From positions 1 to 64,000 of the forward strand of contig JABFRV010000029.1 of assembly GCA_013140975.1 (NCBI GenBank): a stretch of 64,000 nt of DNA, in the 5' to 3' direction. Source of the stretch: Saprospiraceae bacterium. Lineage in GTDB: Bacteria; Bacteroidota; Bacteroidia; Chitinophagales; Saprospiraceae. The notes beneath the pieces were generated by a model. It did not search any database, had not been told where the DNA came from, and was given only the letters and a program-made list of their open reading frames with translations. Positions 18,205-49,269 of the stretch are shown in pieces; the stretch's first letter is position 1, and the number at the start of each line of letters is the position of its first letter. The position numbers were made by a program, and so were the translations under genes.

Positions 18205-18337
18205 GTTGTCCGATTAATGATAATAATAAATTGAACCTCAATAAAATGCGTTATGCAACCCCATGCTTCAGCGTGGGGTTGAAAATGCTCGTTCCAAAAG
18301 GGCTTTAGCCCTGACTAGCAAAAATTAGTCGGACAAC
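18205..18337. repeat. 133-bp palindromic miniature element (MITE/REP-like)
   Basis: The outer ends are inverted repeats: GTTGTCCGATTAAT at 18205-18218 against ATTAGTCGGACAAC at 18324-18337 (13 of 14 pair). Inside are two hairpins: CAACCCCA...TGGGGTTG (18256-18281, loop with GCT/AGC inner pairing) and AGGGCTTTAGCCCT (18299-18312). No ORF is present. The inner hairpins resemble palindromic intergenic repeats that REP-type (RAYT) transposases act on, and the outer repeats look like MITE ends. It fills most of the 335-bp gap between the Omp28-like gene and prfA. Confidence 0.75.
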
Positions 18338-18401
18338 TGTGAATAAAAATATTTATCCCATTGAAATCATACATAATAAATATAATCTATAGATTACATT
18401 T

Positions 18402-19469: not shown

Positions 19470-19475
19470 CCTTGT

Positions 19476-19527
19476 CTCTCCTCCTAAAGGGATGCAAAGC
19501 TAAAAAAATAAGTCAGACAGGCTCAAA
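19476..19527 (-). promoter_or_regulatory. Promoter and strong ribosome binding site of prfA
   Basis: On the minus strand, TTTG at 19527-19524, then 21 bases, then TAGCTTTG (19502-19495), match the Bacteroidota -33/-7 pattern. TTTAGGAGGAGAG follows just before the ATG. A strong AGGAGG Shine-Dalgarno is uncommon in this phylum. Confidence 0.65.
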
Positions 19528-19628
19528 GTTAATTACGAGGTAATTGCATAATTACAGGTCAATTTAACTACCTAATTAAGAAAGTTATAGTGGTTAATTT
19601 CTTCGTCTTATTTATTTTAATAGTAATC

Positions 19629-20966
19629 TTATTTACTCCACTGTAGACGTATCACTGCTTCTCCAACTAATTTACCCTGAGAAACTCCTGTTTCATTGGC
19701 TTCGCGAAAATGAATTCCGCCATACAATCTTGAATTGGCAGCTTCTAATGCCATCTGATCGAAAGAAGAAAATGACCGTGCAGTTCCATTTATATCAGTC
19801 CTGGAAACATGTGTTCTATCAATAAAGGCATATGTGTTTCCAAATTTGTTACTCATTATTGCAGAAAACGCTCCGGATTGTGAAGAATGGCCACTTGTAA
19901 ATTCAGGAAATGGTGGTGTTGCTAAAAGTGGTTGCCAATTGGGATCTATATTCTGATGAATGTAACTAACAGGTCTTAATAAATTAAACGTGTATTTACA
20001 TTTCCAACAACTTATAAATGCATCTGCTAAAGCCATTCCTGCTTTTGCATACATTTCTGCAGCTACGCTTAAATTGACTCTTTCTTTTTGTAAAATTTGC
20101 GACAAGATAGAAATACTATGTCCCGGAGGAGTTCCACCCAATAATCCTGCATCATCACTCCAATATCTTGCAATAAGCTTTTGTTCATCTGATGCATTTT
20201 TTACTGTATTATATACTTCTTCCGCTTGCTTAAAGAATGTGGAAGATTTGTCCGTAGAGAATTTTATATTTAGTATCGGTTGTGAAGCTGAAACATCATT
20301 TGTTACAAAGCTTCTATTGTCTCCCCAATACGGTTGTAAGGGTATTTTTTGCGATGAGGTTGGAACCCATAAACCAGGTCCAACAGGAACATTATAGTTG
20401 CTTGGAAAATTATGTAAATAACCCTCATGTCCACCGTCCGTTTTCGACCACTGAAAAATTTCATTGGCTATTGCTTTTCCAAATGCAACAGAACGATCTA
20501 TAACATCTTGTGATTCACCAACCTCATAAATTCCTAAGTTAGTTCTTTCGAGTTGCTCAATCAACTGCTTCATACTATCCGGAGCATTAGCATATAATAA
20601 TCTTGTAATTTCTGCCAAAGAAGCGTTGGCGCTGATCTGCCATTCGTAATCTTTTCCAGCTTCAACTTTGGTTGCTAAGGTATTTAATCCATTAAGTTGA
20701 CCTTCTAATGAATGATAATTCAACATGCCCGGATTAACGGATTGATATAAGCATACACCGCTATATCCCAAAGCTCTGGACGCTACAGGTGGAGAAAATC
20801 CTGGACAGGTTCTAATCAATCCTCTTTGTAGTTCAAACCATTTTGTTGCAACCTGATCTGAATATGAAGATGTACTACGATCAATCTTAACTTCATCTTC
20901 CGTACAAGAATTGATTGTAAATGAGAGTATTATACATAGTGGGAGAATATATATAAAATTTTTCAT
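19629..20966 (-). CDS. Vanadium-dependent haloperoxidase/PAP2-type lipoprotein
   Basis: A 445-residue protein with a lipoprotein signal (ILPLCIILSFTINSC, Cys ~21). The C-terminal half carries the PAP2/vanadium chloroperoxidase active-site pattern: 'LRPVSYI' (Arg), 'PFPEFTSGHSSQSGAFSAI' (PxxxSGH with the catalytic His), then 'RLYGGIHFREANETG' (Arg and His of the third motif). Haloperoxidases of this fold oxidise halides with peroxide, while PAP2 relatives are acid phosphatases. The sequence alone does not decide between them. It is probably anchored to a membrane on the periplasmic or outer face. It lies after the TonB receptor operon on the same strand, with a 33-bp gap, so it may be co-transcribed. 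Confidence 0.85.
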   Translation of the reverse strand: MKNFIYILPLCIILSFTINSCTEDEVKIDRSTSSYSDQVATKWFELQRGLIRTCPGFSPPVASRALGYSGVCLYQSVNPGMLNYHSLEGQLNGLNTLATKVEAGKDYEWQISANASLAEITRLLYANAPDSMKQLIEQLERTNLGIYEVGESQDVIDRSVAFGKAIANEIFQWSKTDGGHEGYLHNFPSNYNVPVGPGLWVPTSSQKIPLQPYWGDNRSFVTNDVSASQPILNIKFSTDKSSTFFKQAEEVYNTVKNASDEQKLIARYWSDDAGLLGGTPPGHSISILSQILQKERVNLSVAAEMYAKAGMALADAFISCWKCKYTFNLLRPVSYIHQNIDPNWQPLLATPPFPEFTSGHSSQSGAFSAIMSNKFGNTYAFIDRTHVSRTDINGTARSFSSFDQMALEAANSRLYGGIHFREANETGVSQGKLVGEAVIRLQWSK

Positions 20967-31265: not shown

Positions 31266-31303
31266 CAAAAATATCACAATTCTACCGAAAATTGATCAAT
31301 TTT
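31266..31303 (-). promoter_or_regulatory. Promoter and candidate operator of the AAA_14 ATPase gene
   Basis: Minus-strand TATTTTTG (31273-31266) matches TAnnTTTG eight bases before the ATG. A perfect 16-bp palindrome AAAATTGATCAATTTT (31288-31303) covers the place of the -33 element and could be an operator. The repressor is not known. Confidence 0.45.
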
Positions 31304-31304
31304 T

Positions 31305-31392
31305 AAAAAAGTGGCGATAAATTTAATATTGATTTAAAAAAAGTGGCGATAAATTTAATATTGATTTAAAAAAAGTGGCGATAAATTTAATA
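31305..31392. repeat. Three direct repeats of 32 bp upstream of the AAA_14 gene
   Basis: The word GTGGCGATAAATTTAAT begins at 31311, 31343 and 31375, giving an exact 32-base period. The first two units are complete and essentially identical, and the third breaks off after about 18 bases. An A-run precedes each. The array lies just outside the palindrome and promoter. Confidence 0.9.
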
Positions 31393-31465
31393 ATATCATA
31401 TCAAGCCTATAGATTCAATCATGAATCGATAAAAACATTAACATAAATAGTTAATAATCAACTAA

Positions 31466-32905: not shown

Positions 32906-34054
32906 TCAACCCCTCCGAAGATAAGTTGACAGCTTTATCAAAAAATCAAGGAGCAAGATACGAATATTTGCATTTCTCTGAATGGCAAAACTGCTTTCAT
33001 CAAGAAGGTACACGATTTTCTCAATAGAATCGGGGTTTAATTGTGTGGAAATCTTTGAAGCATAGGAAATGAGTTCATTTCCCGAAATGGCAGTAGGACT
33101 ATATGGCAATCGTAAACATAGATCCAAAAGTGTATTTAAAAAGCTAAAAAACTGTTTGATTTCATCCCGATTTAAGGCTGTAATTTTTTCGATCCAGGCC
33201 ATATATCCCAAAGGATCTTTCACATATGCTGCTTTAAACATTTGCTGAATTAGTTCCATATGCTTAATGCCCTCTTCCTCTATCCAATTCAGACACATGG
33301 ACACATTTCCACCGCTAGCCAAGGCATATTCCTCCGCTTTCGGCTTGGCAAGTTTATACTTATCCATTAAAAATTCTGTCAGGTACTTTTCTTCAACAGG
33401 ACCCAATTGATACTCTTGGGTCCTGGATTTAACGGTTGATAATAATGCTTTAGAATCCTCAGAGAGTAAGATAAGGTATGAGTTTCCAGGCGGCTCTTCC
33501 AACAACTTTAAGAGTATATTAGATTCTTTTCCCAGATACTCCGGAAGCCAGATCAACATTACACTGCAATCTGATTCAAAAGGCTTAAAAGCCATTCTCT
33601 CAATGATACTTTTCGCTTCTGCTGCAGTGATATTCGCTTGTTTATTCTCAGCGTCTGAATCTTTCAACCAGTTCTGAACATTCAAGTATGGATTCTTTAT
33701 TACCGAGTTTCTAAAATCCTGATAAAAGTCAACACAAACCGCACCTGCTCCAATCGTAGGAAAGCTATAATTAAGATCGGGATGAATCATATGACTTACC
33801 TTATAACATGATTGGCAAGTTCCACATGGCTTATTTTCATCCTTACAAAGCAGCATTTGTGCCAGATGCAAGCCAATTAATAATTGTCCTGACCCAGCCG
33901 GTCCTGAAATAAGACTGCAATGTGGAAAATTTCCTTCTTTCACTACCTTATGTAATAATTGCAGAACGCGATCCTGAGATAATATCTTATCAGACCAAAG
34001 ATTCTTTGGATGTCGAATTTCCGGAACAACTAATTCTTCTTCTGCGAAAAGCAT
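32906..34054 (-). CDS. holB: DNA polymerase III subunit delta'
   Basis: A 382-residue clamp-loader subunit. The N-terminal AAA+ fold has 'CSLISGPAGSGQLLIGLHLAQ', a Walker A region in which the usual Lys is Gln, then zinc-binding cysteines 'CGTCQSCYKV', 'HPDLNYSFP', and the hallmark 'LLKLLEEPPGNSYLILLSED' and 'TVKSRTQEYQL' (SRC-like motif). Loss of ATP binding is normal for delta' in other bacteria. The C-terminal part is the collar helical domain. Its start is only four bases after a -7 promoter element. Confidence 0.92.
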   Translation of the reverse strand: MLFAEEELVVPEIRHPKNLWSDKILSQDRVLQLLHKVVKEGNFPHCSLISGPAGSGQLLIGLHLAQMLLCKDENKPCGTCQSCYKVSHMIHPDLNYSFPTIGAGAVCVDFYQDFRNSVIKNPYLNVQNWLKDSDAENKQANITAAEAKSIIERMAFKPFESDCSVMLIWLPEYLGKESNILLKLLEEPPGNSYLILLSEDSKALLSTVKSRTQEYQLGPVEEKYLTEFLMDKYKLAKPKAEEYALASGGNVSMCLNWIEEEGIKHMELIQQMFKAAYVKDPLGYMAWIEKITALNRDEIKQFFSFLNTLLDLCLRLPYSPTAISGNELISYASKISTQLNPDSIEKIVYLLDESSFAIQRNANIRILLLDFLIKLSTYLRRG

Positions 34055-34058
34055 GGAG

Positions 34059-34066
34059 CAAATATA
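34059..34066 (-). promoter_or_regulatory. -7 promoter element for holB-ricT, close to the start codon
   Basis: Minus-strand TATATTTG matches TAnnTTTG and is followed by CTCC then the ATG at 34054. Transcription would start at or within a few bases of the initiation codon, so the message would be leaderless or nearly so. Confidence 0.55.
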
Positions 34067-34110
34067 AAGCTCTGAAGCTAAAAAGCTCTGAAGCTCTAAT
34101 TAAAGTTACA

Positions 34111-34130
34111 AATGTTATTAAAGCTATAAA
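34111..34130. repeat. 20-bp direct repeat, left boundary of the accessory region
   Basis: AATGTTATTAAAGCTATAAA, identical to 48938-48957. Around it is a degenerate array of short words (AAAGCT, CTATAAA, ACTAAAGC) from about 34066 to 34146, between holB and the duplicated genes. Confidence 0.8.
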
Positions 34131-34162
34131 TGCTATAAACTACTAAAGCAGGGGAGACAAGT

Positions 34163-36466
34163 CTATAGTTGCATATTTTAAAAATTATATCTCTTGAATA
34201 CTTATTCAATTTAATTCAAACTTATAATTTTTAAAATGCTTAATAAAATTGTTAACTTGCTCTTTATCAGATTCATTTTCAATAAGACACTTATCTAGAT
34301 TATTCAAAATTATTTTGACATTTTCTTTATTTAAGTCTACATAACGAATAAAATGATTAAATTTTTTTAAATTACAATTATTTAAATGCCTTATTGCAAG
34401 TTCAGTTAAAAATTCAGGTCCATGTTTAAAACTCTTTAATACTCCTGTAGCAATCCAATCTGAGATATTACTTTCATTAACCGAAGCAATATAAATAGAT
34501 TCAAAAAGACTATTATTAGCAGTTTTAATAAGAATATTAGCTATTGGATAGTTAAGCTTATAGGTATTAAAGTTTTCAATAATCGCTTCTTGTAATATAG
34601 AAGAATCAATAATCTGTATATCTGTGCGACCTAAGTAGTTTAAATGACTGTAAATGAATCCTGATAACTCATTACTTAAGCAATCTGATTTTTGCTCTTT
34701 AAATTTTTTAATGTCATTATAAATTTCATTAGAATAGTTAATGTATTCGTCTTGGAGTAATTCAATAATAAGCTGTCTTTGAAAAGTTTGATCAATTTTT
34801 AATTTTTCATTTAAACCCCAAATAGCCATTATGCTATCATACTTGATGCTATTTAGAGTATAGCAGTCAAATTGACCTTGATTAATGCTAGTATCATAAT
34901 TGTTACTATTAATTTTTCTTTTTTTTAGTTTCTTTGATTCTAAATGACACGAAGAAGCAAGATAAAAATCTTTAAGTAAATTATACTCATCTGAATTTAT
35001 AGCATGTTCAACAATTGTTTGCTTAAGAAAATACTTATAAAATTCTTCAACCAGCTTTTTATGCTCTTCATATTTGGTTGTCATACTTCCGAATCTAGTA
35101 TCCCAAGTCGAATCAAAATATAGTCTATAATCATAATAAATTCTATAAATAGAATCAAGTTTTTCAAATTGATTATTGATTCTCCAATTCTTTAATATTC
35201 TCTTTGAATTATTTATGCTTACGGGTAAGTTTATTCCAATAATTTTTCCATCTTTGCTTATGTCGCTACCATTAATTATTACTCCTTTCTGCGAAGGTGA
35301 ACGAAATGTATCTAAAATTGACTTTTCATAAGAGACAATAGGTTTATTTCCAAATATATAGTACTTAAGACTATCTACGTCTTGGCAAAATAAAATGCTA
35401 TTTTGCAGAATTAAAGTGATTATAATTTTAATCTTGTATTTTAATTTTTCTTCCATTGGTAACCTTCTATTTTTTTTGATGGATCATATGACCAATCATA
35501 GTCGTTAAGTATATGTTTGTCTTTATAACTTTTCTTTCTACATTCTTCTTCTTCATATTTAGTTCTAACATTTTCACCACTCAAATTAAGAAATTTATAC
35601 TTATCATTATAAATACCAGCTTTTATCTTTTCATCAAAACCATATGACTTATTACTAATTTCAAAAGTATCGGGGAAGTAATCATCATCCATGTCATATT
35701 CATTATCATAACCATTTGGCCAAAGTAAATAATAAACATTTGTGTGATACATTTCATGAAGCAATGTACTTGTAAATGCTTCAATAGCATCAATATTTAC
35801 TAAGCCTCCGCCAATAGGAGGTTGCAGTTCACTTTTTGTGTAACCATTAACATTTCCAATAATAATCTTTCTGGTATTGTCATGATCTATTCCCACTCTT
35901 TGCCACCTATTATCTGTTGTTTTTAAACCAGTACCTTCTGTAACTATTGTAACAACATGACTGTGCGCACCTGCGGAAATTGTATTCTTACTAGTAGGGT
36001 ATTGAAAGTCTCCGGTATTAGAGAACTCTATTGGAATAGTAGCACTTGACTTTGTGCTATTCCATGTAAATCCTACTTGAGGAAAGGGATTAATTGTTGC
36101 TAGTAAAATAGGTTCGGTATTATTTAATCCTTTTGATAAAGCTGCATTTTTCCAATAATAAAACCAATTGGGTACAGAATTATCATGAATATTATTATCA
36201 TATCTTCTGAAGAATACTTTCATTGTTTTAGTTGGGTTAGGTGCTGGGTCAGTACTTAGAACAACATCAGTACCTCGCTCTAACTTTACAACTCCATAAG
36301 TATCTCCAAAATCATTGTTATTTGTTGGTAGCTTATTAGCAGGGATGAATGCTTTTCCTTTCTGAGCCCAGATATTTGGTATTAATGGTTTTAGATCCCA
36401 ATAATTATCAGAGCCACCACCTCCTAATTTCCAAGTCATATTATTAAATGGTGGTTGACCCAGTGC
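34163..36466. repeat. Tandem duplication, copy A (about 2.3 kb)
   Basis: Matches 36489-38792 at a constant offset of 2326 bases. No difference was seen in the stretches compared, and the encoded 416-residue proteins are identical. Between the copies, 36467-36488 is only partly similar to 38793-38814 (about 14 of 22 bases). Confidence 0.9.
34206..35456 (-). CDS. Exported 416-residue protein of unknown family, copy A
   Basis: The N-terminal segment 'YKIKIIITLILQNSILFCQ' is a likely signal peptide. The rest has no domain that I recognise. The first third includes 'SPSQKGVIINGSDISKDGKIIGINLPV', the rest is mostly helical and Asn/Ile/Lys-rich ('FKEQKSDCLSNELSGFIYSHLNYLG', 'ATGVLKSFKHGPEFLTELAIRHLNNC'), and the final 100 residues look like helical repeats. 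It starts inside the last codons of the protease-like gene upstream (16-base overlap), so the two are translated together. An identical copy lies at 36532-37782. Confidence 0.75.
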   Translation of the reverse strand: MEEKLKYKIKIIITLILQNSILFCQDVDSLKYYIFGNKPIVSYEKSILDTFRSPSQKGVIINGSDISKDGKIIGINLPVSINNSKRILKNWRINNQFEKLDSIYRIYYDYRLYFDSTWDTRFGSMTTKYEEHKKLVEEFYKYFLKQTIVEHAINSDEYNLLKDFYLASSCHLESKKLKKRKINSNNYDTSINQGQFDCYTLNSIKYDSIMAIWGLNEKLKIDQTFQRQLIIELLQDEYINYSNEIYNDIKKFKEQKSDCLSNELSGFIYSHLNYLGRTDIQIIDSSILQEAIIENFNTYKLNYPIANILIKTANNSLFESIYIASVNESNISDWIATGVLKSFKHGPEFLTELAIRHLNNCNLKKFNHFIRYVDLNKENVKIILNNLDKCLIENESDKEQVNNFIKHFKNYKFELN

Positions 36467-36535
36467 TTTGCAAGATGTTTCTTCTGCACTATAGTTGCAT
36501 ATTTTAAAAATTATATCTCTTGAATACTTATTCAA
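35441..36535 (-). pseudogene. Putative secreted zinc protease, copy A, truncated at the N-terminus
   Basis: Residues from 'ALGQPPFNN' to the end are identical to the full-length copy at 37767-39029, including 'LLHEMYHTN'. The first ~78 residues of that copy, with the signal peptide, are missing. In their place are 18 codons read from the tail of the neighbouring duplicate ('NKYSRDIIFKICNYSAEETSC'). The only start in the track is TTG at 36535, overlapping the stop of the 416-codon gene as TTGA. Without a signal peptide the product could not be exported, so I call it a broken copy although the HExxH domain is whole. Confidence 0.7.
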
Positions 36536-38792
36536 TTTAATTCAAACTTATAATTTTTAAAATGCTTAATAAAATTGTTAACTTGCTCTTTATCAGATTC
36601 ATTTTCAATAAGACACTTATCTAGATTATTCAAAATTATTTTGACATTTTCTTTATTTAAGTCTACATAACGAATAAAATGATTAAATTTTTTTAAATTA
36701 CAATTATTTAAATGCCTTATTGCAAGTTCAGTTAAAAATTCAGGTCCATGTTTAAAACTCTTTAATACTCCTGTAGCAATCCAATCTGAGATATTACTTT
36801 CATTAACCGAAGCAATATAAATAGATTCAAAAAGACTATTATTAGCAGTTTTAATAAGAATATTAGCTATTGGATAGTTAAGCTTATAGGTATTAAAGTT
36901 TTCAATAATCGCTTCTTGTAATATAGAAGAATCAATAATCTGTATATCTGTGCGACCTAAGTAGTTTAAATGACTGTAAATGAATCCTGATAACTCATTA
37001 CTTAAGCAATCTGATTTTTGCTCTTTAAATTTTTTAATGTCATTATAAATTTCATTAGAATAGTTAATGTATTCGTCTTGGAGTAATTCAATAATAAGCT
37101 GTCTTTGAAAAGTTTGATCAATTTTTAATTTTTCATTTAAACCCCAAATAGCCATTATGCTATCATACTTGATGCTATTTAGAGTATAGCAGTCAAATTG
37201 ACCTTGATTAATGCTAGTATCATAATTGTTACTATTAATTTTTCTTTTTTTTAGTTTCTTTGATTCTAAATGACACGAAGAAGCAAGATAAAAATCTTTA
37301 AGTAAATTATACTCATCTGAATTTATAGCATGTTCAACAATTGTTTGCTTAAGAAAATACTTATAAAATTCTTCAACCAGCTTTTTATGCTCTTCATATT
37401 TGGTTGTCATACTTCCGAATCTAGTATCCCAAGTCGAATCAAAATATAGTCTATAATCATAATAAATTCTATAAATAGAATCAAGTTTTTCAAATTGATT
37501 ATTGATTCTCCAATTCTTTAATATTCTCTTTGAATTATTTATGCTTACGGGTAAGTTTATTCCAATAATTTTTCCATCTTTGCTTATGTCGCTACCATTA
37601 ATTATTACTCCTTTCTGCGAAGGTGAACGAAATGTATCTAAAATTGACTTTTCATAAGAGACAATAGGTTTATTTCCAAATATATAGTACTTAAGACTAT
37701 CTACGTCTTGGCAAAATAAAATGCTATTTTGCAGAATTAAAGTGATTATAATTTTAATCTTGTATTTTAATTTTTCTTCCATTGGTAACCTTCTATTTTT
37801 TTTGATGGATCATATGACCAATCATAGTCGTTAAGTATATGTTTGTCTTTATAACTTTTCTTTCTACATTCTTCTTCTTCATATTTAGTTCTAACATTTT
37901 CACCACTCAAATTAAGAAATTTATACTTATCATTATAAATACCAGCTTTTATCTTTTCATCAAAACCATATGACTTATTACTAATTTCAAAAGTATCGGG
38001 GAAGTAATCATCATCCATGTCATATTCATTATCATAACCATTTGGCCAAAGTAAATAATAAACATTTGTGTGATACATTTCATGAAGCAATGTACTTGTA
38101 AATGCTTCAATAGCATCAATATTTACTAAGCCTCCGCCAATAGGAGGTTGCAGTTCACTTTTTGTGTAACCATTAACATTTCCAATAATAATCTTTCTGG
38201 TATTGTCATGATCTATTCCCACTCTTTGCCACCTATTATCTGTTGTTTTTAAACCAGTACCTTCTGTAACTATTGTAACAACATGACTGTGCGCACCTGC
38301 GGAAATTGTATTCTTACTAGTAGGGTATTGAAAGTCTCCGGTATTAGAGAACTCTATTGGAATAGTAGCACTTGACTTTGTGCTATTCCATGTAAATCCT
38401 ACTTGAGGAAAGGGATTAATTGTTGCTAGTAAAATAGGTTCGGTATTATTTAATCCTTTTGATAAAGCTGCATTTTTCCAATAATAAAACCAATTGGGTA
38501 CAGAATTATCATGAATATTATTATCATATCTTCTGAAGAATACTTTCATTGTTTTAGTTGGGTTAGGTGCTGGGTCAGTACTTAGAACAACATCAGTACC
38601 TCGCTCTAACTTTACAACTCCATAAGTATCTCCAAAATCATTGTTATTTGTTGGTAGCTTATTAGCAGGGATGAATGCTTTTCCTTTCTGAGCCCAGATA
38701 TTTGGTATTAATGGTTTTAGATCCCAATAATTATCAGAGCCACCACCTCCTAATTTCCAAGTCATATTATTAAATGGTGGTTGACCCAGTGC
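36489..38792. repeat. Tandem duplication, copy B (about 2.3 kb)
   Basis: Second copy of 34163-36466. It carries the tail of the complete protease-like gene and the whole second 416-codon gene. Confidence 0.9.
36532..37782 (-). CDS. Exported 416-residue protein of unknown family, copy B
   Basis: Identical in translation to 34206-35456: likely signal peptide in the first ~25 residues, then a mainly helical body without a recognised domain. This copy directly follows the complete protease-like gene, which it overlaps by 16 bases, so it is probably the original one. The constant pairing of the two genes suggests that this protein works with the protease, for instance as inhibitor, chaperone or substrate. 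That is inference only. Confidence 0.78.
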   Translation of the reverse strand: MEEKLKYKIKIIITLILQNSILFCQDVDSLKYYIFGNKPIVSYEKSILDTFRSPSQKGVIINGSDISKDGKIIGINLPVSINNSKRILKNWRINNQFEKLDSIYRIYYDYRLYFDSTWDTRFGSMTTKYEEHKKLVEEFYKYFLKQTIVEHAINSDEYNLLKDFYLASSCHLESKKLKKRKINSNNYDTSINQGQFDCYTLNSIKYDSIMAIWGLNEKLKIDQTFQRQLIIELLQDEYINYSNEIYNDIKKFKEQKSDCLSNELSGFIYSHLNYLGRTDIQIIDSSILQEAIIENFNTYKLNYPIANILIKTANNSLFESIYIASVNESNISDWIATGVLKSFKHGPEFLTELAIRHLNNCNLKKFNHFIRYVDLNKENVKIILNNLDKCLIENESDKEQVNNFIKHFKNYKFELN

Positions 38793-39029
38793 CTTATAAG
38801 ATATTTCCTCAGTTACTACAGCATTAGTAACAGGATCAGTACCACTTACTACTACTTTCCATTTTTTAGAACTCTTAAAGTCATCAATTACTAATTGATT
38901 CACACACTCCACATTCAAGCCATTCCCTCCGGGTGGCCCAGGGTTATTATCCTGTACTTGTGAATGAATGGAGTTTAGCATAAATGCATTTAAGAGTAGA
39001 AACGAAATTGATTGATTTATAATTCTCAT
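37767..39029 (-). CDS. Putative secreted zinc metalloprotease (HExxH), full-length copy
   Basis: A 420-residue protein with signal peptide (SISFLLLNAFMLNSIHSQ), a Pro/Gly-rich stretch 'NNPGPPGGNG' and a beta-rich middle. 'AFTSTLLHEMYHTNVYYLL' (residues ~310-327) carries the HExxH zinc-protease motif at 316-320. A Glu/Asp-rich segment follows ('DNEYDMDDDYFPDTFE'), and it could supply the third zinc ligand, perhaps Glu348, though this is a guess. No T9SS sorting domain is seen at the end ('KKIEGYQWKKN'), so the protein may stay in the periplasm or leave by another route. It starts eight bases after the SprB-like gene and is probably in its operon. No family was recognised. Confidence 0.72.
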   Translation of the reverse strand: MRIINQSISFLLLNAFMLNSIHSQVQDNNPGPPGGNGLNVECVNQLVIDDFKSSKKWKVVVSGTDPVTNAVVTEEISYKALGQPPFNNMTWKLGGGGSDNYWDLKPLIPNIWAQKGKAFIPANKLPTNNNDFGDTYGVVKLERGTDVVLSTDPAPNPTKTMKVFFRRYDNNIHDNSVPNWFYYWKNAALSKGLNNTEPILLATINPFPQVGFTWNSTKSSATIPIEFSNTGDFQYPTSKNTISAGAHSHVVTIVTEGTGLKTTDNRWQRVGIDHDNTRKIIIGNVNGYTKSELQPPIGGGLVNIDAIEAFTSTLLHEMYHTNVYYLLWPNGYDNEYDMDDDYFPDTFEISNKSYGFDEKIKAGIYNDKYKFLNLSGENVRTKYEEEECRKKSYKDKHILNDYDWSYDPSKKIEGYQWKKN

Positions 39030-39037
39030 ATATTGGA

Positions 39038-42000
39038 TTATTTTTTAATGATTTTATAAACTCCAATGACCTCTTCTGATGACTTAACAGTTATGAAGTA
39101 CATACCTTGACTCAAATCCTTCAAGTTACACTCTTTGACACTTCTACCTTTTTGCACATTTACGTCTTTATAAGTCTTCATCACCTTACCTGTAGGGTCG
39201 TGAATGATATAATCTATAATCTGTAAGTCAGTTGAGGTAAATATGAAATTGACATTGTCTTGAGTTGGGTTGGGATACATACCCTCAATAGCTAAATTTC
39301 TTGTTATTCTAGATGATATATCTGGGTACTTAATCTGGTTACCACTTGTCCTTGGGTCTATTATAAATACAGTTGCATTGCAATCATAATCAATTCCGTT
39401 TACAGAATTTCCATTAAATTGAATATTGGGTCCATTAAAGGTCGTTAATAGTCCAAACTTATTATCGGTAGAAACAACTCCATCAATGAGATTATCTGAT
39501 CCTTGGCCCGTTGATTGAAGATAGCTGATTAAATTATTTTGAACATTATACCTTATCATAAAAATATCTTTCAATTCAGAACTCATTGAATTGTTTACAC
39601 TTATATTCATGTCACCTTTGAATGTACCAGAAAGGTAATAATCAGCATTTAATTCGTCTGGCACAATAGATTTAACTTCTAAAGATTGTGAACTTGTTAT
39701 GGTATTAATAAATCCAATGGCAGGGTTTTGAATATCAAAAATACTTGCATAATTGATTGAATCATCCAGTGAAGAATAATTCACAATTGCTTTATGATAT
39801 CCTAATTGAGCAGAATAGATTGAATTAATAGTACCATTAACAGGAATAGAGCTTGTTGTCCAAGTGCTATTCGAGCTGTTAAATGAAATTATATCTATAG
39901 CAGGAATAGTTGATGTATTATTAGTAGATATAACTGTCAAACCACTATTGGATTTTACTATTTTCGCATCTGAAGGAATTGAGTTCATCGGCAAATCTAA
40001 AGGACTTCCTGTTAGATTATTATTGAGGTTTACAATTTTTAAACTAACTCCTAGATTGCCTGTACCATTATCATATGGATAATTACTAATTAATAAGTCT
40101 GCAGATCCATTAGGATTCATCAAAACATCAAATAACTTAGTATAAGAATCATTGAATAACAATGAAGAATTAACAAATATTCCATTCCCATCAAAATCAA
40201 TCTTAATGACATTCGGATCGTCATTATTAAGCAAGATACTGCTTCCAATACCTTCAAGTTTAGTTGCATTAGCCAATAAAGAGAATCCTGTTCCTTGTTG
40301 TATTAGGTCAATAATATTGAATTCCCAATCATGCGCATCTGGAATATTAACTTGTGTGTGACGCGAATTAACAAATATTCCATTCTGATCATAAAATGAC
40401 ATTTTAATAGCTTTTCCATTAAATCCAAATGATACAAATGCATTTAAGTTATTTAAATAATGGAATTTGGTTGGGCAGTCTTTTAGACCTGGAGGCTCCA
40501 GGCAATTTGGCGCATTAGGATTTTCACATTTGGCATAAGGAACTACTTTCTCTTTATAAAGGTCATGATGATAAGTCAGTGTTTGAGAATTTTCAGGATA
40601 TCCCCAACATTCATGTGTTTCCTTACATTTTCCTTCTTTATCGTCATAACAATATTTTAAATCTGAAATATAGGCTTCTATTTCAAAATGTGTATCAAAC
40701 CCACCATTATAAATATACTTTCTTTGATAAGTTCCACACATTTTATTTTTATAAGTAGGCCAAAATGAAATAATAGCGTTGTAGATATCACTAAAGTTAG
40801 TCTTAAATATAATTGGGTCATCTATTCTTTCTTCAAAGGTTAAATTAACTTGAGGGCAATTTACTCTAACCCAGTCACCCCTAGATCTGTAAATTTTTTT
40901 ATCACCATTAGGGCTTTGAAATACACAAACGCTACCTTCAATACATTCATTGCTTTCTTTATCATGTATTGTAACCTTATGAATATCACCTTGCAAATTT
41001 TCAGTAGTATTTCCACAGGTATAACTTAGTGTACATTCTATTTTTTTAAAATCTTCTGTAAGTTCAGCAGGCTGTGAAAATTGAAATTTACCATCACAAT
41101 AAAATTCTTGCTTACAAGCAGGTGGAGTGCTTACTATTTTAGATGAAAGCCGTGGAAAAACATTAAAGTAGTGCCTAGATACACAGCCGGCGCCATCTGT
41201 TAATACTACATATGGCAGCTGAAAAGGATTGTTTATTCTATAAGCAGTAAACTTAAATTTAAATATGCCTTTATTTTTTTCCTCAGAATCTAAGCCATTT
41301 GAAGTATAACAATCCATACTAAATGGCGGAATCATATCAGAACCATGTACTTTAAAAGTAATTATCATTTCATCACGATTCCAGCAATATGTATTACCGC
41401 TTACGTCGACATTATAATTGCTATTTATACAATCTCTTAATTTTAATGTTATACTTTTACAGTCAGAAGAATAACAAGTATAGTCTCCTGGTGCCAAATT
41501 TTCTAAGAATCTCCCTTCGTTCTTAAATCCGTTAGGTCCAGCCCATGTATAAGAGCATGTAGTTTCTCCGGTCATAATAATTTTACCATTATTCTCTCCA
41601 CTACTAGGATGAAATATGAGAGGTAATTTTGTACAATAACTTCCTGTCTTATACGGGCAACATGTTTGTTTTATTTGGATTTTTTGAGAGCACCCATTAT
41701 TATCCGTTACTGTAACATAAATTGGATTACTGTTGTTAACTTGAAGATATTTTTCATTGCTAGTTGTTCCATCAGGCCATATATATGTAAAAGGCCCATC
41801 ACTATTTTCATGCAATATTACGTGATTATAATTTATGCTTCCAACTAAACATTCCTGTTGTACATTTACTTTAGGCAAAATATCAACATATCTACATAAG
41901 TATTTATACTTTGTCCCACAATAAATATTCACACAATACTCACCTGAAGAATTTATTTCAATTGACCTTTCGTTAGAGCCGTTTCCTGACCATGAAAAAT

Positions 42001-43966
42001 TACAGAATTCATGACCTGTAATAGTTAATTTCGTTTTACCCCCATTTACGGAACAGTTAGCTTCGATTTTAAGATCATTTTCTTCAGTAGTTGCTGGGAT
42101 GATAATTTGCTCACGAGCGCAACATTCTCCACAATAAATATATAAATAATATATTCCTTCAGTTAAACTTCTTAAAGTAAGTGGAAAAGTGCTATTTCTT
42201 TTTTCACCTTTAAGAAATACATTATTGCATTCAATAGAGGAAGAGTTACTTGTTAAGAGATAGTAATAATCAGTTAACTTTTCCGTGCATAAATTCTTAA
42301 TATAAATAACAGCTTCACCTTCACCACCATAGGTTTCCCTGTTATCTGCAACTCTAATATCTACGTTAATATCTTGACTGCTATAAATTTGATTCACATT
42401 TAAATTTTCTATTTCCGGGCACAAAGTATTACTTATCTTATATTTACCAACTGCGGCGTTAAAATAATGTTTACCTTTCGATAAAGATAATACATCACTT
42501 TTATTGAATCCATTTCCAGAAATGGTTATTTTGGCATCTTCCCTTAGTAGATCAACAATTAACGAACCATCTGTAAAATTGCAGGATGCATCTATTGAAC
42601 TGGCTGATAAATTATTCCCTTTTGAATCTCCAATAAAAAAGGATAAACTTTCACTACAATCAATATTATCAGTATAATATACTATTGAATATAAACCTAC
42701 CTTATTAAAGAATAATCTTTTTTCATTAGGGTTAACACTTCCATTGTATTGTAGATTGCCCAATACATCTTTAATAAAGTAATTAATTACTTTAGTATAA
42801 TTATTGGCAATTTCATAAATTCCACTTTTATTATAATCTTTTCCACATGTTCCCTTTTCCAATATAGTTAATGTAAGCTTACCTTTAATTGGCTCTCTTT
42901 TGTCGATTATGTTCACTGTTATTAATTCTTGACAATAAGTTGATAAATTAGTTACTTCTATCAAATATGTTCCAGGACTGAAAAAGTCAATAGTTTTGGA
43001 AGTACTTCTTCCTGGCTCTTCTTCTTTTTTAACGAGTATCCTATAATCCTCAGTTTTAAAATAATGAATGTTTAACTCTAGAGTAACGGATGCACAAAAT
43101 AAATCAAGGTTTACTAAGCCATTTGGAGAGGCAACTAGATCGCAATTTTTTATTATTTCGAAACACTTTTTATTAATTATTCTATTAGAACAACAGAATA
43201 TATCTACACAATAAGAACCAGGCAATAGTGATGAAGGACTCTTCTTTGAGCTAATATATCCATTGTTGCCAGTCCAAAAGTATTTTAAATTTGGATTATC
43301 AACATTCTCGAGAGTTATAGCCCCTTTATCACTATTACTTATATAATTTTTAATAGAATACAAGAATTCAAAATTACACTTATAACTTTGATCTACATCA
43401 ACATCGAAACATCCACTTTTTCTACATCCGTTTACATCATAGATAGTTACACAATACGTACCTTTAGATAACATATTAATAGATCCTTGATTTGAGCCAT
43501 TTGACCAGTTAAATGAATATGGTGGATTCCCACCTGTGATATATTCTAATTCTAGGCTACCATCATTAGTAGAAGAACAATTAACTGGATGTATTAAATA
43601 ATCAAAATCTAAAGTATTTATTTCTTCAAATATTTCTGCAAGCCGTTCAACATAACATGCATGATCAAAATATATTACGACTTTGTACTTACCATATTTT
43701 AAGAAGTTTATTGGAAACGAATTATGTGTCATTATAATCGTTCCACTTGTTCCGTCTTCATGGGTAAAAGATACCTCATAAGGCAAGGGATAAGGCATTT
43801 CATTTGGAGGGACTGTGCCTCCTCTTGAAAATGTAATATTTATGCTCCCATTTTCGCTTCCTGAACACTCGTTACTTGTTAACAAGTCCAAATTCCAATT
43901 CACTTGTGAAAAAGAGCTCATACTGGTAAATAATATAATTAAAAATGCGCTAAGAAGATTCTTCAT
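39038..43966 (-). CDS. Giant SprB-like T9SS surface protein
   Basis: A 1642-residue secreted protein with signal peptide (LLSAFLIILFTSMSSFSQ). Residues ~128-195 are a SprB-type repeat ('NDGSLELEYITGGNPPYSFNWSNGS', 'GTYCVTIYDVNGCRKSG'), with weaker related units further on ('YIWPDGTTSNEKYLQVNN', 'VTVTDNNGCSQKI', 'SYTWAGPNGFKNEGRFL'). Many of these are unusually Cys-rich ('YCVDIFCCSN', 'EYCVNIYCG'). A Cys-rich central domain (~1030-1200) is followed by a propeller-like stretch with many Asn/Ser. The T9SS domain starts at 'EGMYPNPTQDNVNF' and ends 'SEEVIGVYKIIKK'. SprB itself is a gliding adhesin, but adhesin or matrix function here is inference. Confidence 0.85.
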   Translation of the reverse strand: MKNLLSAFLIILFTSMSSFSQVNWNLDLLTSNECSGSENGSINITFSRGGTVPPNEMPYPLPYEVSFTHEDGTSGTIIMTHNSFPINFLKYGKYKVVIYFDHACYVERLAEIFEEINTLDFDYLIHPVNCSSTNDGSLELEYITGGNPPYSFNWSNGSNQGSINMLSKGTYCVTIYDVNGCRKSGCFDVDVDQSYKCNFEFLYSIKNYISNSDKGAITLENVDNPNLKYFWTGNNGYISSKKSPSSLLPGSYCVDIFCCSNRIINKKCFEIIKNCDLVASPNGLVNLDLFCASVTLELNIHYFKTEDYRILVKKEEEPGRSTSKTIDFFSPGTYLIEVTNLSTYCQELITVNIIDKREPIKGKLTLTILEKGTCGKDYNKSGIYEIANNYTKVINYFIKDVLGNLQYNGSVNPNEKRLFFNKVGLYSIVYYTDNIDCSESLSFFIGDSKGNNLSASSIDASCNFTDGSLIVDLLREDAKITISGNGFNKSDVLSLSKGKHYFNAAVGKYKISNTLCPEIENLNVNQIYSSQDINVDIRVADNRETYGGEGEAVIYIKNLCTEKLTDYYYLLTSNSSSIECNNVFLKGEKRNSTFPLTLRSLTEGIYYLYIYCGECCAREQIIIPATTEENDLKIEANCSVNGGKTKLTITGHEFCNFSWSGNGSNERSIEINSSGEYCVNIYCGTKYKYLCRYVDILPKVNVQQECLVGSINYNHVILHENSDGPFTYIWPDGTTSNEKYLQVNNSNPIYVTVTDNNGCSQKIQIKQTCCPYKTGSYCTKLPLIFHPSSGENNGKIIMTGETTCSYTWAGPNGFKNEGRFLENLAPGDYTCYSSDCKSITLKLRDCINSNYNVDVSGNTYCWNRDEMIITFKVHGSDMIPPFSMDCYTSNGLDSEEKNKGIFKFKFTAYRINNPFQLPYVVLTDGAGCVSRHYFNVFPRLSSKIVSTPPACKQEFYCDGKFQFSQPAELTEDFKKIECTLSYTCGNTTENLQGDIHKVTIHDKESNECIEGSVCVFQSPNGDKKIYRSRGDWVRVNCPQVNLTFEERIDDPIIFKTNFSDIYNAIISFWPTYKNKMCGTYQRKYIYNGGFDTHFEIEAYISDLKYCYDDKEGKCKETHECWGYPENSQTLTYHHDLYKEKVVPYAKCENPNAPNCLEPPGLKDCPTKFHYLNNLNAFVSFGFNGKAIKMSFYDQNGIFVNSRHTQVNIPDAHDWEFNIIDLIQQGTGFSLLANATKLEGIGSSILLNNDDPNVIKIDFDGNGIFVNSSLLFNDSYTKLFDVLMNPNGSADLLISNYPYDNGTGNLGVSLKIVNLNNNLTGSPLDLPMNSIPSDAKIVKSNSGLTVISTNNTSTIPAIDIISFNSSNSTWTTSSIPVNGTINSIYSAQLGYHKAIVNYSSLDDSINYASIFDIQNPAIGFINTITSSQSLEVKSIVPDELNADYYLSGTFKGDMNISVNNSMSSELKDIFMIRYNVQNNLISYLQSTGQGSDNLIDGVVSTDNKFGLLTTFNGPNIQFNGNSVNGIDYDCNATVFIIDPRTSGNQIKYPDISSRITRNLAIEGMYPNPTQDNVNFIFTSTDLQIIDYIIHDPTGKVMKTYKDVNVQKGRSVKECNLKDLSQGMYFITVKSSEEVIGVYKIIKK

Positions 43967-44390
43967 AATTATTAATAGTTTTAATATACTTACACTAGTT
44001 ATTATCTTTTTATATACTTTGACCTTATCATTAACAGATACCTTTATTGCAGATACATCTATACATCATAGGAGAATGCAAATAAAGAAGAACATTATAT
44101 TTTTAATACTCGAATTATTTACATATTTCTATAAAAATTAATCTCGTAATATTATTCACGATTATCAATTGCATATAAAACTTTCCTACTAACGCGGTAT
44201 TTTTTCATACGAGCGCTAAATATTTCAACCAAAATCAATGAATTTACAGAATAAGTACCCAATAATATCAAGATAGTAAAGTTGAATAATTTAACTTGAT
44301 TATATCTTTATAAGTTTAAATTCTATAATATTAATATAAATTTTCTAAACAATTATTTGGAAAAATAAAAATTACTATCTTGCGCTCACT
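43967..44390. other. Divergent intergenic region between the SprB-like gene and the AraC-type regulator
   Basis: About 424 bases, very AT-rich, without a real gene (the + ORF of 108 codons at 43815-44141 is mostly the antisense of the SprB-like gene). It must hold two divergent promoters, and the regulator gene next to it makes it a good place for its binding sites. No clear palindrome was recognised. Confidence 0.45.
44356..44382 (+). promoter_or_regulatory. Possible promoter of the AraC-type regulator gene
   Basis: TTTG at 44356-44359 and TATCTTG at 44376-44382 approximate the Bacteroidota -33/-7 pair, with one base short of the -7 consensus. The -7-like element ends eight bases before the ATG. 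Confidence 0.35.
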
Positions 44391-44954
44391 ATGAAAACTA
44401 TTACACCACTTATTATTAATCCTTTTAATAATCCTTTATTTGCTCTGGATCCTCAAATAGGCATATCAAAAGACATTAATTCTACCTACTTGCTTTGCTC
44501 TACATATTTTAGTAGCAATCCTTCCATCTTCAGATTACATTCTACATTGACTAAATTTTATTCAAATTATAATTCACTTATAAGGAGTCATTTGATCATT
44601 AATAATTTAATTCTATTTGTGTCAGAATTTATTGGAAATGAAAGACTTATTACTCTTAATGATATAAGCAAAAATATTTGTATTAGTGAAATACACTTAT
44701 ACAAAACTGTTCGTAAGGAATTAGGAATCAGTCCTAGAATACTATTACAAGATTATTATGTATCACAAATAATCATCTTATATATATCGTATGGGCTATC
44801 AATCAAAGAAATAACTGAAAAGCTTGGATTTCAGGAAACATCAAGTCTTTGTCATTTCTTTAAGCGTAAATCAGGATACACAATAAGTGCGCTTAAAAAA
44901 ATACAAAACAATGATTTAAACAGTTTTTCCAAAGTTTCAAACAACTTACACTAA
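44391..44954 (+). CDS. AraC-family transcriptional regulator
   Basis: A 187-residue protein. The last ~95 residues form the AraC-type double helix-turn-helix: 'ITLNDISKNICISEIHLYKTVRKELGISPR' (first HTH) and 'LSIKEITEKLGFQETSSLCHFFKRKSGYT' (second HTH, with the typical GFxxxSxFxRxFK pattern). The N-terminal ~90 residues have no cupin-like sensor that I recognise and are shorter than in standard AraC proteins. It lies between the two divergent exported-protein operons and is the obvious candidate to control them. Confidence 0.88.
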   Translation: MKTITPLIINPFNNPLFALDPQIGISKDINSTYLLCSTYFSSNPSIFRLHSTLTKFYSNYNSLIRSHLIINNLILFVSEFIGNERLITLNDISKNICISEIHLYKTVRKELGISPRILLQDYYVSQIIILYISYGLSIKEITEKLGFQETSSLCHFFKRKSGYTISALKKIQNNDLNSFSKVSNNLH

Positions 44955-44966
44955 ATATGATCATAG

Positions 44967-44974
44967 TACTTTTG
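44967..44974 (+). promoter_or_regulatory. -7 promoter element for the T9SS-hydrolase-propeller operon
   Basis: TACTTTTG matches TAnnTTTG, 35 bases before the ATG at 45010 and after the stop of the regulator gene. The operon may therefore be transcribed apart from the regulator. Confidence 0.5.
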
Positions 44975-45009
44975 TCTTGATATTATTAAAACACTAAATT
45001 TTTTATCTT

Positions 45010-46026
45010 ATGAGAAAGTCCATTTACATTTTTTTACTTTTATTTTATGATGTAGCAATTTCGCAATTTCCAGAAAAACCGGTTGAGTTTCTTGAACACC
45101 TTCATTACTTTGAAGAGCATCGTGAAATTACTATGAAAGATAATACAACAGATTTAACAATTATGGATAAAGGTGCTGTTGCTCCTAAATCCAGTACTTC
45201 TATTGTAGATCTTTATTTGCTTCGAAATGGATATATTTTAAAATTTGAAAAGATGATTTCAAATTCTCAAGATCAATCCTATTTTAACAATATTGCTTAT
45301 ATTGTTACTGATGAAAATAAAGTGACTACTTACAATGCTCAAAAAAAATTAATCAACGAAGTTTCACTTAAGTCCATTGATCCTGGATATACTCCTCAAA
45401 AAGCAAGAACCTTATTGAAGCCAAGAATTGAATTCAATGATGAGACTATTGATCATGTTAAAAAAGAAGGTCTTGAAATTCAAAGTCTTAGTAACAATGT
45501 CTGGAAGATTTATAATTCTGACTTGATAATATACTACAATTTACAGGCTCAGTCTATAATTACCCAGGAAGTTGAATCTGGTAAAATTACTTCAACTCAT
45601 TTTAATAAGTATATTGAAATTATCGAAAATGAATTTTTTGATGGTGTTGATCAGATTTCAATTCCACTTACTGTTCGTAGTGGTGAGGTATTAAATAATT
45701 ACAAGGTTAACAATAGATCTGAATTTACATTTATCCGCAATTCGCCTTTAAAAGGAAGATCGAATGTAAAATACAATTCTAGTTCTAAAAAAGATGAAAA
45801 GGGATTTATTTATCCTAATATCGCTTTTAATGAAATTCGGATACAAAATTATGGTTTGCATAAATTTGAATTTTATAGTATAACATCTATAGATTCAAAA
45901 ATGAGTAAAATAAATCAGAAAATTAAGTCAGAAGTAATAGATGTAAGTGATTTAATGCCCGGTGTTTACATTATTCGACTTTATAATAAACAGGGAATAA
46001 AAAAAGAAAAATTTATAAAAATCTAA
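45010..46026 (+). CDS. Secreted protein with T9SS sorting domain
   Basis: A 338-residue protein with signal peptide (KSIYIFLLLFYDVAISQ). The middle has no recognised domain: 'LDHVKKEGLEIQS' type Lys-rich beta segments, and 'VDLYLLRNGYILKFEKMI'. The last ~75 residues ('IYPNIAFNEIRIQNYGLHKFEFYS', 'LMPGVYIIRLYNKQGIKKEKFIKI', in parts) form a T9SS sorting domain with YPNIA in place of YPNP. It is followed by the alpha/beta hydrolase with an 11-base gap, so the two are co-expressed. Its function is unknown. Confidence 0.8.
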   Translation: MRKSIYIFLLLFYDVAISQFPEKPVEFLEHLHYFEEHREITMKDNTTDLTIMDKGAVAPKSSTSIVDLYLLRNGYILKFEKMISNSQDQSYFNNIAYIVTDENKVTTYNAQKKLINEVSLKSIDPGYTPQKARTLLKPRIEFNDETIDHVKKEGLEIQSLSNNVWKIYNSDLIIYYNLQAQSIITQEVESGKITSTHFNKYIEIIENEFFDGVDQISIPLTVRSGEVLNNYKVNNRSEFTFIRNSPLKGRSNVKYNSSSKKDEKGFIYPNIAFNEIRIQNYGLHKFEFYSITSIDSKMSKINQKIKSEVIDVSDLMPGVYIIRLYNKQGIKKEKFIKI

Positions 46027-46037
46027 ATCTTAACATT

Positions 46038-47504
46038 ATGAAAATTTATTTAATTTTATTATCTTTGATTTGTGTAAATATTAGAAGCTTTTCTCAGCCT
46101 GGTTCTGGAAGCATGAATATTAATGGAAATTCTTTAACAGGTTATGGTTCTCCCTCTGGTCCAACTAATGTTGCCGATGATCGAAGAGTGTTTTGGATTC
46201 ATGGGCTTGGAGGAGATCCCCTAACAACTTGGAATAAAGCAGCTGCAGAATATCAATCCACTCACAGAATAAGAAATACTTTTCCTGCCTATACACAGAC
46301 AGGATTGAAAGGTGGAGCACAAAATGTCTTAGAAATTATGAATCAGACATTAAAAGGAACCAGTCCAACAAAAGAACCTATTGCAGTCTGCCATAGTCAA
46401 GGTGGTGTGGTTGCAAGAGCTGTACTTTACGAATCAGAAGTTGTTCTAAAAGAACAATCTCCTATTCGAGGCATAGCAACATTTGATTCTCCTCACGGTG
46501 GTGCCTTAATAATTGACAATATTGATAACATTTTACAAATGGTTGAAGAGGGCTGCTCAAAATTAATAGAAGGACCGGTTGTAGAATTTGTTCAATCTAA
46601 ATTTTTACTAGATCTTTTCGTTAATGCTGAAGACATAGCAAGAAAAGTTGGTGGATTAGCTTGTCCGGTTGCAGAAAAGGCTCTAGGAATTGCATTTAAA
46701 GAATTGAAAAGCCCGATAGGCAAAGATTATAGTCATACGAACCCATCAGAATATTTTTCTAAATTAGGACACTTAACCTTTCCGCACATTTCTAAAGTCG
46801 CATTTGCAGGTTATGAAGAAGAGCCGGTTTTATTCAGACAAATGTTTTGGTTATTAAACTCACCGGAGAGTGTACCCGCTTTTACGGCTAACGAAGATCA
46901 TGAATTCGTTGATAAATTTAATACGTTAACAAATACTTATTATTCCAAATATAAGTCTAAAATTGCAAGAATAGAAATTTATAACAATATAGCTTGTTCT
47001 TTACATCCTTTCTGTTTGATAGATAAGATAATTAAAACGAATAAATTTAGAAGAGAGGCTAACGCATATTTAAATGGTTACAATTGGTTAACAACTCTTA
47101 ATCAAAATTGGAAAGTAATGATAGGAGCAGGAGAATATAGAAACACTGAAATAGGAGAGTGTTCATGCTCGCAATACACTTATGATGGTAACTTTGTTAC
47201 AGAATATTTTATAGATGGTATTTGCAACTCTGGGTTTGACGAGTGCAGGTCAAATTCTTATCCTGAAAATTTTATATATTGCGACTGTAAATCCTTAGGT
47301 CATCAAATATTTTATTATGATATTGAGCCAAGTGATGCTGTTGTTCCTGTAAGTTCTCAATATGCATTCCCTGGAGTAGAACATAAGGTTAAACTAGATA
47401 AAAGCAATCACCAACAATGTCGAAATGATAGAAATACTAAAGAAGCATTGGATAACTTATTTTTGGGTAACTATGGATTAACCTTCGAAGCTAAACGCAG
47501 ATAA
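46038..47504 (+). CDS. Exported alpha/beta hydrolase (lipase/esterase-like)
   Basis: A 488-residue protein with signal peptide (IYLILLSLICVNIRSFSQ). Residues ~53-59 'WIHGLGGDP' are the oxyanion-loop motif of lipases, and 'AVCHSQGGVVARAV' holds the nucleophile elbow with Ser ~120 (H-S-Q-G, PGAP1/lipase-like). 'EPSDAVVPVSSQYAFPGVEH' with a later 'KSNHQQCRND' gives the likely catalytic Asp and His. The late part is Cys-rich ('GECSCSQYTYD', 'YCDCKSLGH'), probably disulfide-bonded outside the cytoplasm. It likely cleaves an ester or lipid, substrate unknown. No T9SS tail is seen. Confidence 0.82.
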   Translation: MKIYLILLSLICVNIRSFSQPGSGSMNINGNSLTGYGSPSGPTNVADDRRVFWIHGLGGDPLTTWNKAAAEYQSTHRIRNTFPAYTQTGLKGGAQNVLEIMNQTLKGTSPTKEPIAVCHSQGGVVARAVLYESEVVLKEQSPIRGIATFDSPHGGALIIDNIDNILQMVEEGCSKLIEGPVVEFVQSKFLLDLFVNAEDIARKVGGLACPVAEKALGIAFKELKSPIGKDYSHTNPSEYFSKLGHLTFPHISKVAFAGYEEEPVLFRQMFWLLNSPESVPAFTANEDHEFVDKFNTLTNTYYSKYKSKIARIEIYNNIACSLHPFCLIDKIIKTNKFRREANAYLNGYNWLTTLNQNWKVMIGAGEYRNTEIGECSCSQYTYDGNFVTEYFIDGICNSGFDECRSNSYPENFIYCDCKSLGHQIFYYDIEPSDAVVPVSSQYAFPGVEHKVKLDKSNHQQCRNDRNTKEALDNLFLGNYGLTFEAKRR

Positions 47505-47512
47505 TATTGATT

Positions 47513-48790
47513 ATGAAAAATATCATGCTATTTTTAATGTTGATTATAATTTCTTGTCATAAATATAATCCAGATACAGTAGATCCGCCAGATCCTCCCA
47601 AGCAAAAGGATACTCTTCAGGTTGTTTGGTATTCTTACGTTAGAGATAATTCAGATACCGTATCGAGATTTTGTTTAAAACCGGTTTTCTTCAATAATTT
47701 CGTAATTACTTCTTCCTTTAATATACCAGGTCCTGAAAAAGAACAATTTCATTGTTTCAATAAAAAAACAGGAGAAAGAGAATGGATTTGGCAAGACTAT
47801 TTTGATAGGGGATTTGGTAGCAGGATCAATTTTAGAGATCATATCAGGTATATTGATCCCAGTGGTTCTTTTCTTCTAGCTGAAGCTTACTCTTTCTATA
47901 ATATTGACCTAAATACCGGCAAGACAATTAATTCCCTCAACTTTTATCCTTATATCGATGCATTGCAAGGTGGCACATTAGACGTAACCTATTATAAAGA
48001 TGGTTTTCTGGCATCCTATGGCTTCAATGATATTCCCAATACTGACTCTTCCATATTATATCAAATTGATAAAAACAATATGGATATTCGTGAAATATTA
48101 AAAATTAAAAATTCAGGTGAGTATTATCCTTTCATTCAAAATACTTACCTACATGTTAGACCTAATAATGATACTTTCCTGATTGGATCTTTTGGCTGGC
48201 TAAAAATAAAGCATTCAGAAGAAAAATACGATTTATTCTGTTATAATTTAACGAAGAAGGAATTTGTATGGAAAAAAGATAGCTTTAGCAAACAACTCAA
48301 TAATAACTTATATCTTCAAGACGGAAAATTGTACTGTGTTGCGTATAATGATTTTTATTCAATTGAAATTGAGACTGGCGATATTATTTGGAAGGGTGGG
48401 CCTTCCTTCACCGACGAAGGTTTTTTTCTAGATCCATTAACAATTGCCGAAGGAAAAATATTTGCAAAAACTACTTTAGGTCATATGTTTTGCGTAGATC
48501 AAAATACAGGATCAGTTATCTGGTCTAATAAAAAACATGAAGAATCTGGAGCTGCTAGCCTAGGTCAAAACTCAAAAATTGAATATTACAAAGGAAAAAT
48601 TTACTTTTCCGATAATACTATGCGAATCTTAGATGCATCGAATGGTTCATTATTACACAAATATAATTCTCCTAAATCTGTGCCTCAATATCCTGAAAAT
48701 TATATTGAAGGTATTACTATCGATCCTGAATCAGAATTAATGTACTTTACAGATGGATACCATTTGATTTGCGCTAAAATTCCGAAGTAA
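47513..48790 (+). CDS. PQQ-like beta-propeller lipoprotein
   Basis: A lipoprotein of about 425 residues. I prefer the ATG at 47513 to the TTG at 47507 in the track. The signal 'NIMLFLMLIIISCHK' puts the lipid-modified Cys near residue 15, followed by a Pro/Asp-rich linker 'DPPDPPKQKD'. The body has repeated propeller strands typical of PQQ-like/quinoprotein-fold proteins ('NKKTGEREWIW', 'DINIETGDIIWKGG'-like 'EIETGDIIWKGG', 'DQNTGSVIWSNKK', 'LDASNGSLLHKYN'). PQQ itself is not implied. It follows the hydrolase within about eight bases and ends the operon before a hairpin terminator. Confidence 0.83.
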   Translation: MKNIMLFLMLIIISCHKYNPDTVDPPDPPKQKDTLQVVWYSYVRDNSDTVSRFCLKPVFFNNFVITSSFNIPGPEKEQFHCFNKKTGEREWIWQDYFDRGFGSRINFRDHIRYIDPSGSFLLAEAYSFYNIDLNTGKTINSLNFYPYIDALQGGTLDVTYYKDGFLASYGFNDIPNTDSSILYQIDKNNMDIREILKIKNSGEYYPFIQNTYLHVRPNNDTFLIGSFGWLKIKHSEEKYDLFCYNLTKKEFVWKKDSFSKQLNNNLYLQDGKLYCVAYNDFYSIEIETGDIIWKGGPSFTDEGFFLDPLTIAEGKIFAKTTLGHMFCVDQNTGSVIWSNKKHEESGAASLGQNSKIEYYKGKIYFSDNTMRILDASNGSLLHKYNSPKSVPQYPENYIEGITIDPESELMYFTDGYHLICAKIPK

Positions 48791-48832
48791 AAGCCAATAC
48801 ACCAGATATTAATGTTAGTAATTATTTGTAGT

Positions 48833-48875
48833 TAATGCCTAGATTTATGTTAAAAGAAAAGTTCTCTAGGCATTA
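48833..48875 (+). terminator. Hairpin terminator after the plus-strand accessory operon
   Basis: TAATGCCTAGA at 48833-48843 pairs perfectly with TCTAGGCATTA at 48865-48875, with a 21-base loop, followed by TTTTGTTCTTTTC. It lies about 40 bases after the propeller gene. Confidence 0.7.
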
Positions 48876-48937
48876 TTTTGTTCTTTTCAATTTCACTATT
48901 GAATAGAAGTTCTTATGTCGCACGAATTAATGATAGT

Positions 48938-48957
48938 AATGTTATTAAAGCTATAAA
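48938..48957. repeat. 20-bp direct repeat, right boundary of the accessory region
   Basis: AATGTTATTAAAGCTATAAA, the same sequence and orientation as 34111-34130, within a further array of similar words up to about 48990. Confidence 0.8.
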
Positions 48958-49269
48958 AGGTATTAATGCCACTAAAGCTAAAAAAGGTATTTGATTATGG
49001 TCGATAGTCATTAGCAGGTCAACTTTTGATCAAGTACTGCTGTCAAGATTCATTGATAACAGAAGTTTTTATAGTGTCTGTTATTTCGTTGAGAGGGAAA
49101 CCTTGATAAAGATTACTTGCTGTTGATTCTTATTTGCTAATATTTTTGATATTTCTGATACCGAATTTCAATTTTTAATTTTCAATTTTTAATTGATACT
49201 GCGCTTCTTAAAGTTCAAATTCTATTAAATCTATAAATGCAATTTAAATTTATTGCCAATAAGTGTTTT

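Follow-up and report, generated by a model that had tools for sequence, protein, structure and literature searches.

How does a gene pair come to be repeated base for base, with a short stretch of altered sequence lodged exactly where the two copies meet? The question arises in the window, i.e. the whole 64,000-nucleotide stretch of a Saprospiraceae bacterium contig that was analysed. Positions 34163-36466 and 36489-38792 of the window form an exact maximal repeat (R) of 2304 bp with zero mismatches at an offset of 2326, and on both sides of R the similarity at this offset drops to background. The sequence-only reading had described two apparently identical copies at this offset, with identical 416-residue proteins, and this description holds to the base. 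The copies are adjacent and in the same direct orientation, as in a simple head-to-tail tandem duplication; judged against the present right-hand flank they do not abut, since 22 bp (J, 36467-36488) intervene between them. They would abut if the 5' end of the full-length gene had been replaced afterwards. The duplication is probably real, recent and partial.

The genes concerned lie on the minus strand in the order 1642-aa protein with a T9SS sorting domain (39038-43966), P1, Q1, the P2 frame, Q2 and holB (32906-34054), a DNA polymerase III delta'-like gene whose name was given from its sequence and not from a family search. P1 (37767-39029) encodes 420 aa with a signal-peptide-like start and an HExxH motif, of which H316, E317 and H320 are invariant across the four sequences compared, and P is a putative secreted zinc peptidase. 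Q1 (36532-37782) encodes 416 aa, also with a signal-peptide-like start, and shares 16 bp with the end of P1; Q is a putative secreted protein, predicted to be mostly helical by a structure model of low confidence (pLDDT 41). The corresponding model of P was not usable (pLDDT 28). There was no match to P in Pfam, NCBIfam or among the solved structures of the PDB, and for Q no family of Pfam or NCBIfam passed its cut-off. Each copy of R consists of the 3' part of P, the whole of Q and a 43-bp spacer after Q: copy 1 (36489-38792) holds these parts of P1 and Q1, and copy 2 (34163-36466) those of P2 and Q2. Q2 (34206-35456, 416 aa) is identical to Q1. P2 (35441-36535) is a 5'-truncated P, a 364-aa open frame that opens at a TTG and overlaps the end of Q1; it has no signal peptide and keeps HExxH. 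Lacking the signal peptide, P2 is probably non-functional, and the locus is likely to yield one secreted P and two copies of Q.

On the minus strand J reads TGCAGAAGAAACATCTTGCAAA and the segment of P1 at 38793-38814 reads AACTGAGGAAATATCTTATAAG; the two align ungapped with 14 of 22 positions identical, 6 of the 8 differences are transitions, and J lines up in frame with precisely those 22 bp of P1 that adjoin R. The protein across the junction is SAEETSCKALGQ, as compared to VTEEISYKALGQ in P1. At the aligned position the other family members match J at 8-10 of 22 bases, so that P1 is the nearest to J of the four members compared. Against a background of 2.17 million 22-mers, taken from both strands of a sample of about 1.08 Mb of the genome, 0.055% (about 5e-4) reached at least 14 matches to this P1 segment, and only 0.0014% (1.4e-5, an empirical frequency) did so with a comparable excess of transitions; among the in-frame 22-mers of the window the 14-match rate is 0.25%. 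Given how rarely such a match occurs by chance, J probably represents this stretch of the gene in a diverged version, with the certainty of this homology limited by its length of 22 bp. The earlier observation that 36467-36488 carries a related but different sequence is thus borne out, and so is the view that plain slippage does not account for the patch.

The same numbers bear on another explanation, namely that the duplication was illegitimate, that J is a 22-bp filler left by end joining or template switching, and that its likeness to P is accidental. Bacterial duplications can be joined without homology (PMC4432121 and the Acinetobacter study cited there), and AT-rich sequence in the window yields unrelated matches to J at 15-16 of 22 positions. 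A filler would nevertheless have to reach 14 of 22 in the sole expected register and show the transition excess as well, and we consider this explanation improbable.

If J is homologous to P, it is natural to ask where it came from. The sequence-only reading had proposed that a third, diverged copy elsewhere in the genome might be the donor, and only half of this proposal survives: a diverged relative was probably involved, and none that could be the donor was found in the assembly. There is no third copy of P, Q or J in the assembly (3.97 Mb, 196 contigs). Besides the two copies, a protein search of the same genome returned only a distant paralog, on contig C5 and 35% identical in the part that matched; it was rejected as donor, as it matches J at only 8 of 22 bases at the aligned position. 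The whole-genome search for the junction sequence that had been suggested found a single match at up to 3 mismatches, which is J itself. Viral relatives of P and a viral copy of J were also searched for, and there were none; nor was an intact P allele carrying J found among the genomes searched, which included no conspecific. The failure to find a donor in the same genome is what one would expect if the donor was the allele of another strain, and the simplest source of J would be an allele of this gene that has diverged in some other strain.

The setting of the locus is that of a variable site. Between holB and a nuoN-type gene the window contains about 15.2 kb of accessory genes (34055-49269), while the two genes are separated by only about 100-180 bp in the congeners G008 and G003, and by about 1.3-1.5 kb in G004, G006 and G007. 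By comparison of these sequences the stretch appears to be an insertion between the nuoN-type gene and holB. P is absent from every congener searched and the nuoN-holB interval differs among them, which is why we regard the locus as variable. The relatives of P are rare and patchily distributed: of the other relatives searched, 2 have P, and among 399 genomes of the order there is 1 further case. Q gave only two marginal, partial matches, and the genes adjoining P in G043, G068 and L015 have no similarity to Q. Arrays of P and Q were accordingly not seen in relatives. Several short repeats were noted in the window. An AT-rich intergenic repeat of the ATTTATAGCTTTAATAACATT type occurs at 34093-34139 and 48920-48984 (81% identity between these two copies), close to either end of the accessory genes, with further copies on contigs C143, C116, C25 and C22. 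A 32-bp unit (TTTAAAAAAAGTGGCGATAAATTTAATATTGA) is present in three tandem copies between two genes at 31301-31396, and a 7-bp tandem repeat, GGTTGAC, at 13289-13355; a similar 7-bp repeat, GGTTAAT, is found at the start of contig C7 and at the end of contig C156.

We propose that the locus is a partial tandem duplication and that its junction is the record of a recombination in which a diverged allele of P took part, a reading that we hold to be about evenly balanced between right and wrong and that is the least demanding. In the likeliest route, incoming DNA would have carried a variant P-Q allele, with a P whose 5' part is of the VTEEISYKALGQ type. Its upstream side would have integrated by homology, and its other side through an illegitimate join where the spacer after Q ends. 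This would have pushed the 3' part of the old gene downstream, as a P2-Q2 module that lacks the 5' part of P and starts at J, and in J 22 bp of the former P would survive as a fossil. In a second route, a simple head-to-tail duplication of 2326 bp, with J plus R as its unit, would have come first, and the 5' end of P1 would later have been replaced by the allele of another strain. The two routes give the same product and are equivalent, and the data do not separate them.

Some points speak against the involvement of a variant allele. No intact P bearing J was found, and J is only 22 bp long. The weak spot is that the two alleles would have to differ at about one third of the bases of J while matching throughout the 2304 bp that follow; this calls for earlier mosaicism, for homogenisation at a later stage or for differences smoothed out during assembly. 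A process that homogenises tandem copies could explain the match, and contig C26 of the same assembly offers a comparison: two adjacent giant T9SS-type genes (10232-13901 and 16273-19981) share an identical tract of 2147 bp and differ by several percent on both sides of it, a pattern that reflects either a gene-conversion-like process or assembler smoothing. A third relative of these genes, 69% identical, is located at 889-3020 of the same contig. The C26 tract also lends some credit to a different history, in which an older, diverged and truncated P2-Q2 was overwritten by P1-Q1 except for the 22 bp next to its end. However, gene conversion is unlikely between sequences that differ as much as J and P1, and the boundaries of the tract would need to fall almost exactly at the edge of the module on one side and at its natural end on the other; we therefore regard conversion as rather unlikely.

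What the contig can say about the cell depends on how it was made. Among the contig ends sampled, exact overlaps of 127 bp were found in five distinct cases (the end pairs C30/C116, C12/C147 and C170/C130, plus two ends matching inside a contig), and several further ends overlap by 120-126 bp. Since contig ends overlap by exactly 127 bp, the assembly is a de Bruijn assembly of short reads with k=127, and such an assembly can cross a long exact tandem repeat as a loop. R would be one collapsed edge of the graph, crossed twice by way of a 22-bp loop, and the same contig would result from two, three or more tandem copies. The graph would also be compatible with a duplication present in part of the population, or with a chromosome accompanied by a circle of R plus J, and small differences between the copies may have been smoothed by the assembler. 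Hence that the copies are identical, and that there are two of them, is what the assembler gives and was not measured independently; "two identical copies" stands for at least one pass of the loop, and the cautious wording "apparently identical" of the sequence-only reading was apt.

From this it is a short step to the suspicion that the repeat is a product of the assembly, i.e. that the loop edge is rare, chimeric or derived from a co-occurring strain, and that the main genome has a single P-Q pair. A one-copy chromosome with an excised 2326-bp circle of R and J would yield the same graph. The case for it is that a 2304-bp exact repeat becomes a single edge at k=127, so that the contig does not tell how many copies there are, and that other contigs (C40 and C130) begin inside repeats. 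On the other hand, J together with some sequence on each side fits inside single 127-mers, and the R-J-R junction should therefore be present in the reads, although this speaks against a chimera only indirectly; the contig is free of N and the estimated contamination is 0.05%. On balance we think this suspicion unlikely to be correct, though less so than the other rival readings. As for the earlier suggestion that the assembly had joined two paralogs, a blunt joining of two contigs appears less likely than that reading allowed, because a junction within single k-mers should need spanning reads. Some other features of the assembly were recorded as well. Contig C130 carries at positions 1-4400 an array of 288-bp repeats at the contig end and a 710-bp exact repeat at offset 864, and contig C34 a repeat of about 670 bp (619-1287 and 2434-3101; 99% identical, 651 bp exact) that flanks a region of short ORFs resembling, by eye, RelE/ParE toxins. 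A 16S search of the genome returned none; as the control search also fails in 5 of 14 known genomes and contig C90 is N throughout, no weight was given to this.

Returning to recombination with a variant allele, it is instructive to compare the locus with systems already described. Events of this kind are ordinary and already known, and the locus is of interest chiefly for its mosaic junction, as an example, and for the limits of k=127 assembly; if real, the 22-bp patch would be the trace of a recombination between variants of different strains at a site that is variable. The transformation-induced merodiploids of Streptococcus pneumoniae are tandem duplications with a hybrid junction and integrated donor DNA (PMC3784515), and the present locus resembles them in being a tandem duplication with a hybrid junction sequence. 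They are mostly 100-900 kb in size with IS repeats at their ends, whereas the duplication here is 2.3 kb and no end repeat was found. The duplication of patAB, which is homology-independent, head-to-tail and without direct repeats at its ends (PMC4432121), is similar in orientation and in lacking such repeats; a homologous patch like J has, in contrast, not been described at the patAB junction. The third comparison is to the cdi loci of Acinetobacter, which contain orphan or displaced CdiA-CT/CdiI modules, some arisen via tandem duplication and others displaced by incoming DNA (PMC6336857). The differences are clear: P and Q have no recognisable toxin or immunity domains in Pfam or NCBIfam and no sequence relation to CDI, and the P-Q copies are identical while the cdi modules are different toxins. 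The likeness is one of architecture, as in both cases the 3' part of a gene is repeated together with its partner, without the 5' part, downstream of the full-length pair. One may speculate that P-Q pairs a polymorphic secreted peptidase with a partner that neutralises it, and that orphan modules are displaced as the locus evolves, in the manner of cdi and T6SS loci. We consider this a long shot; if it were true, J would mark a single step of such displacement, in a family of secreted peptidases and partners that has not been described.
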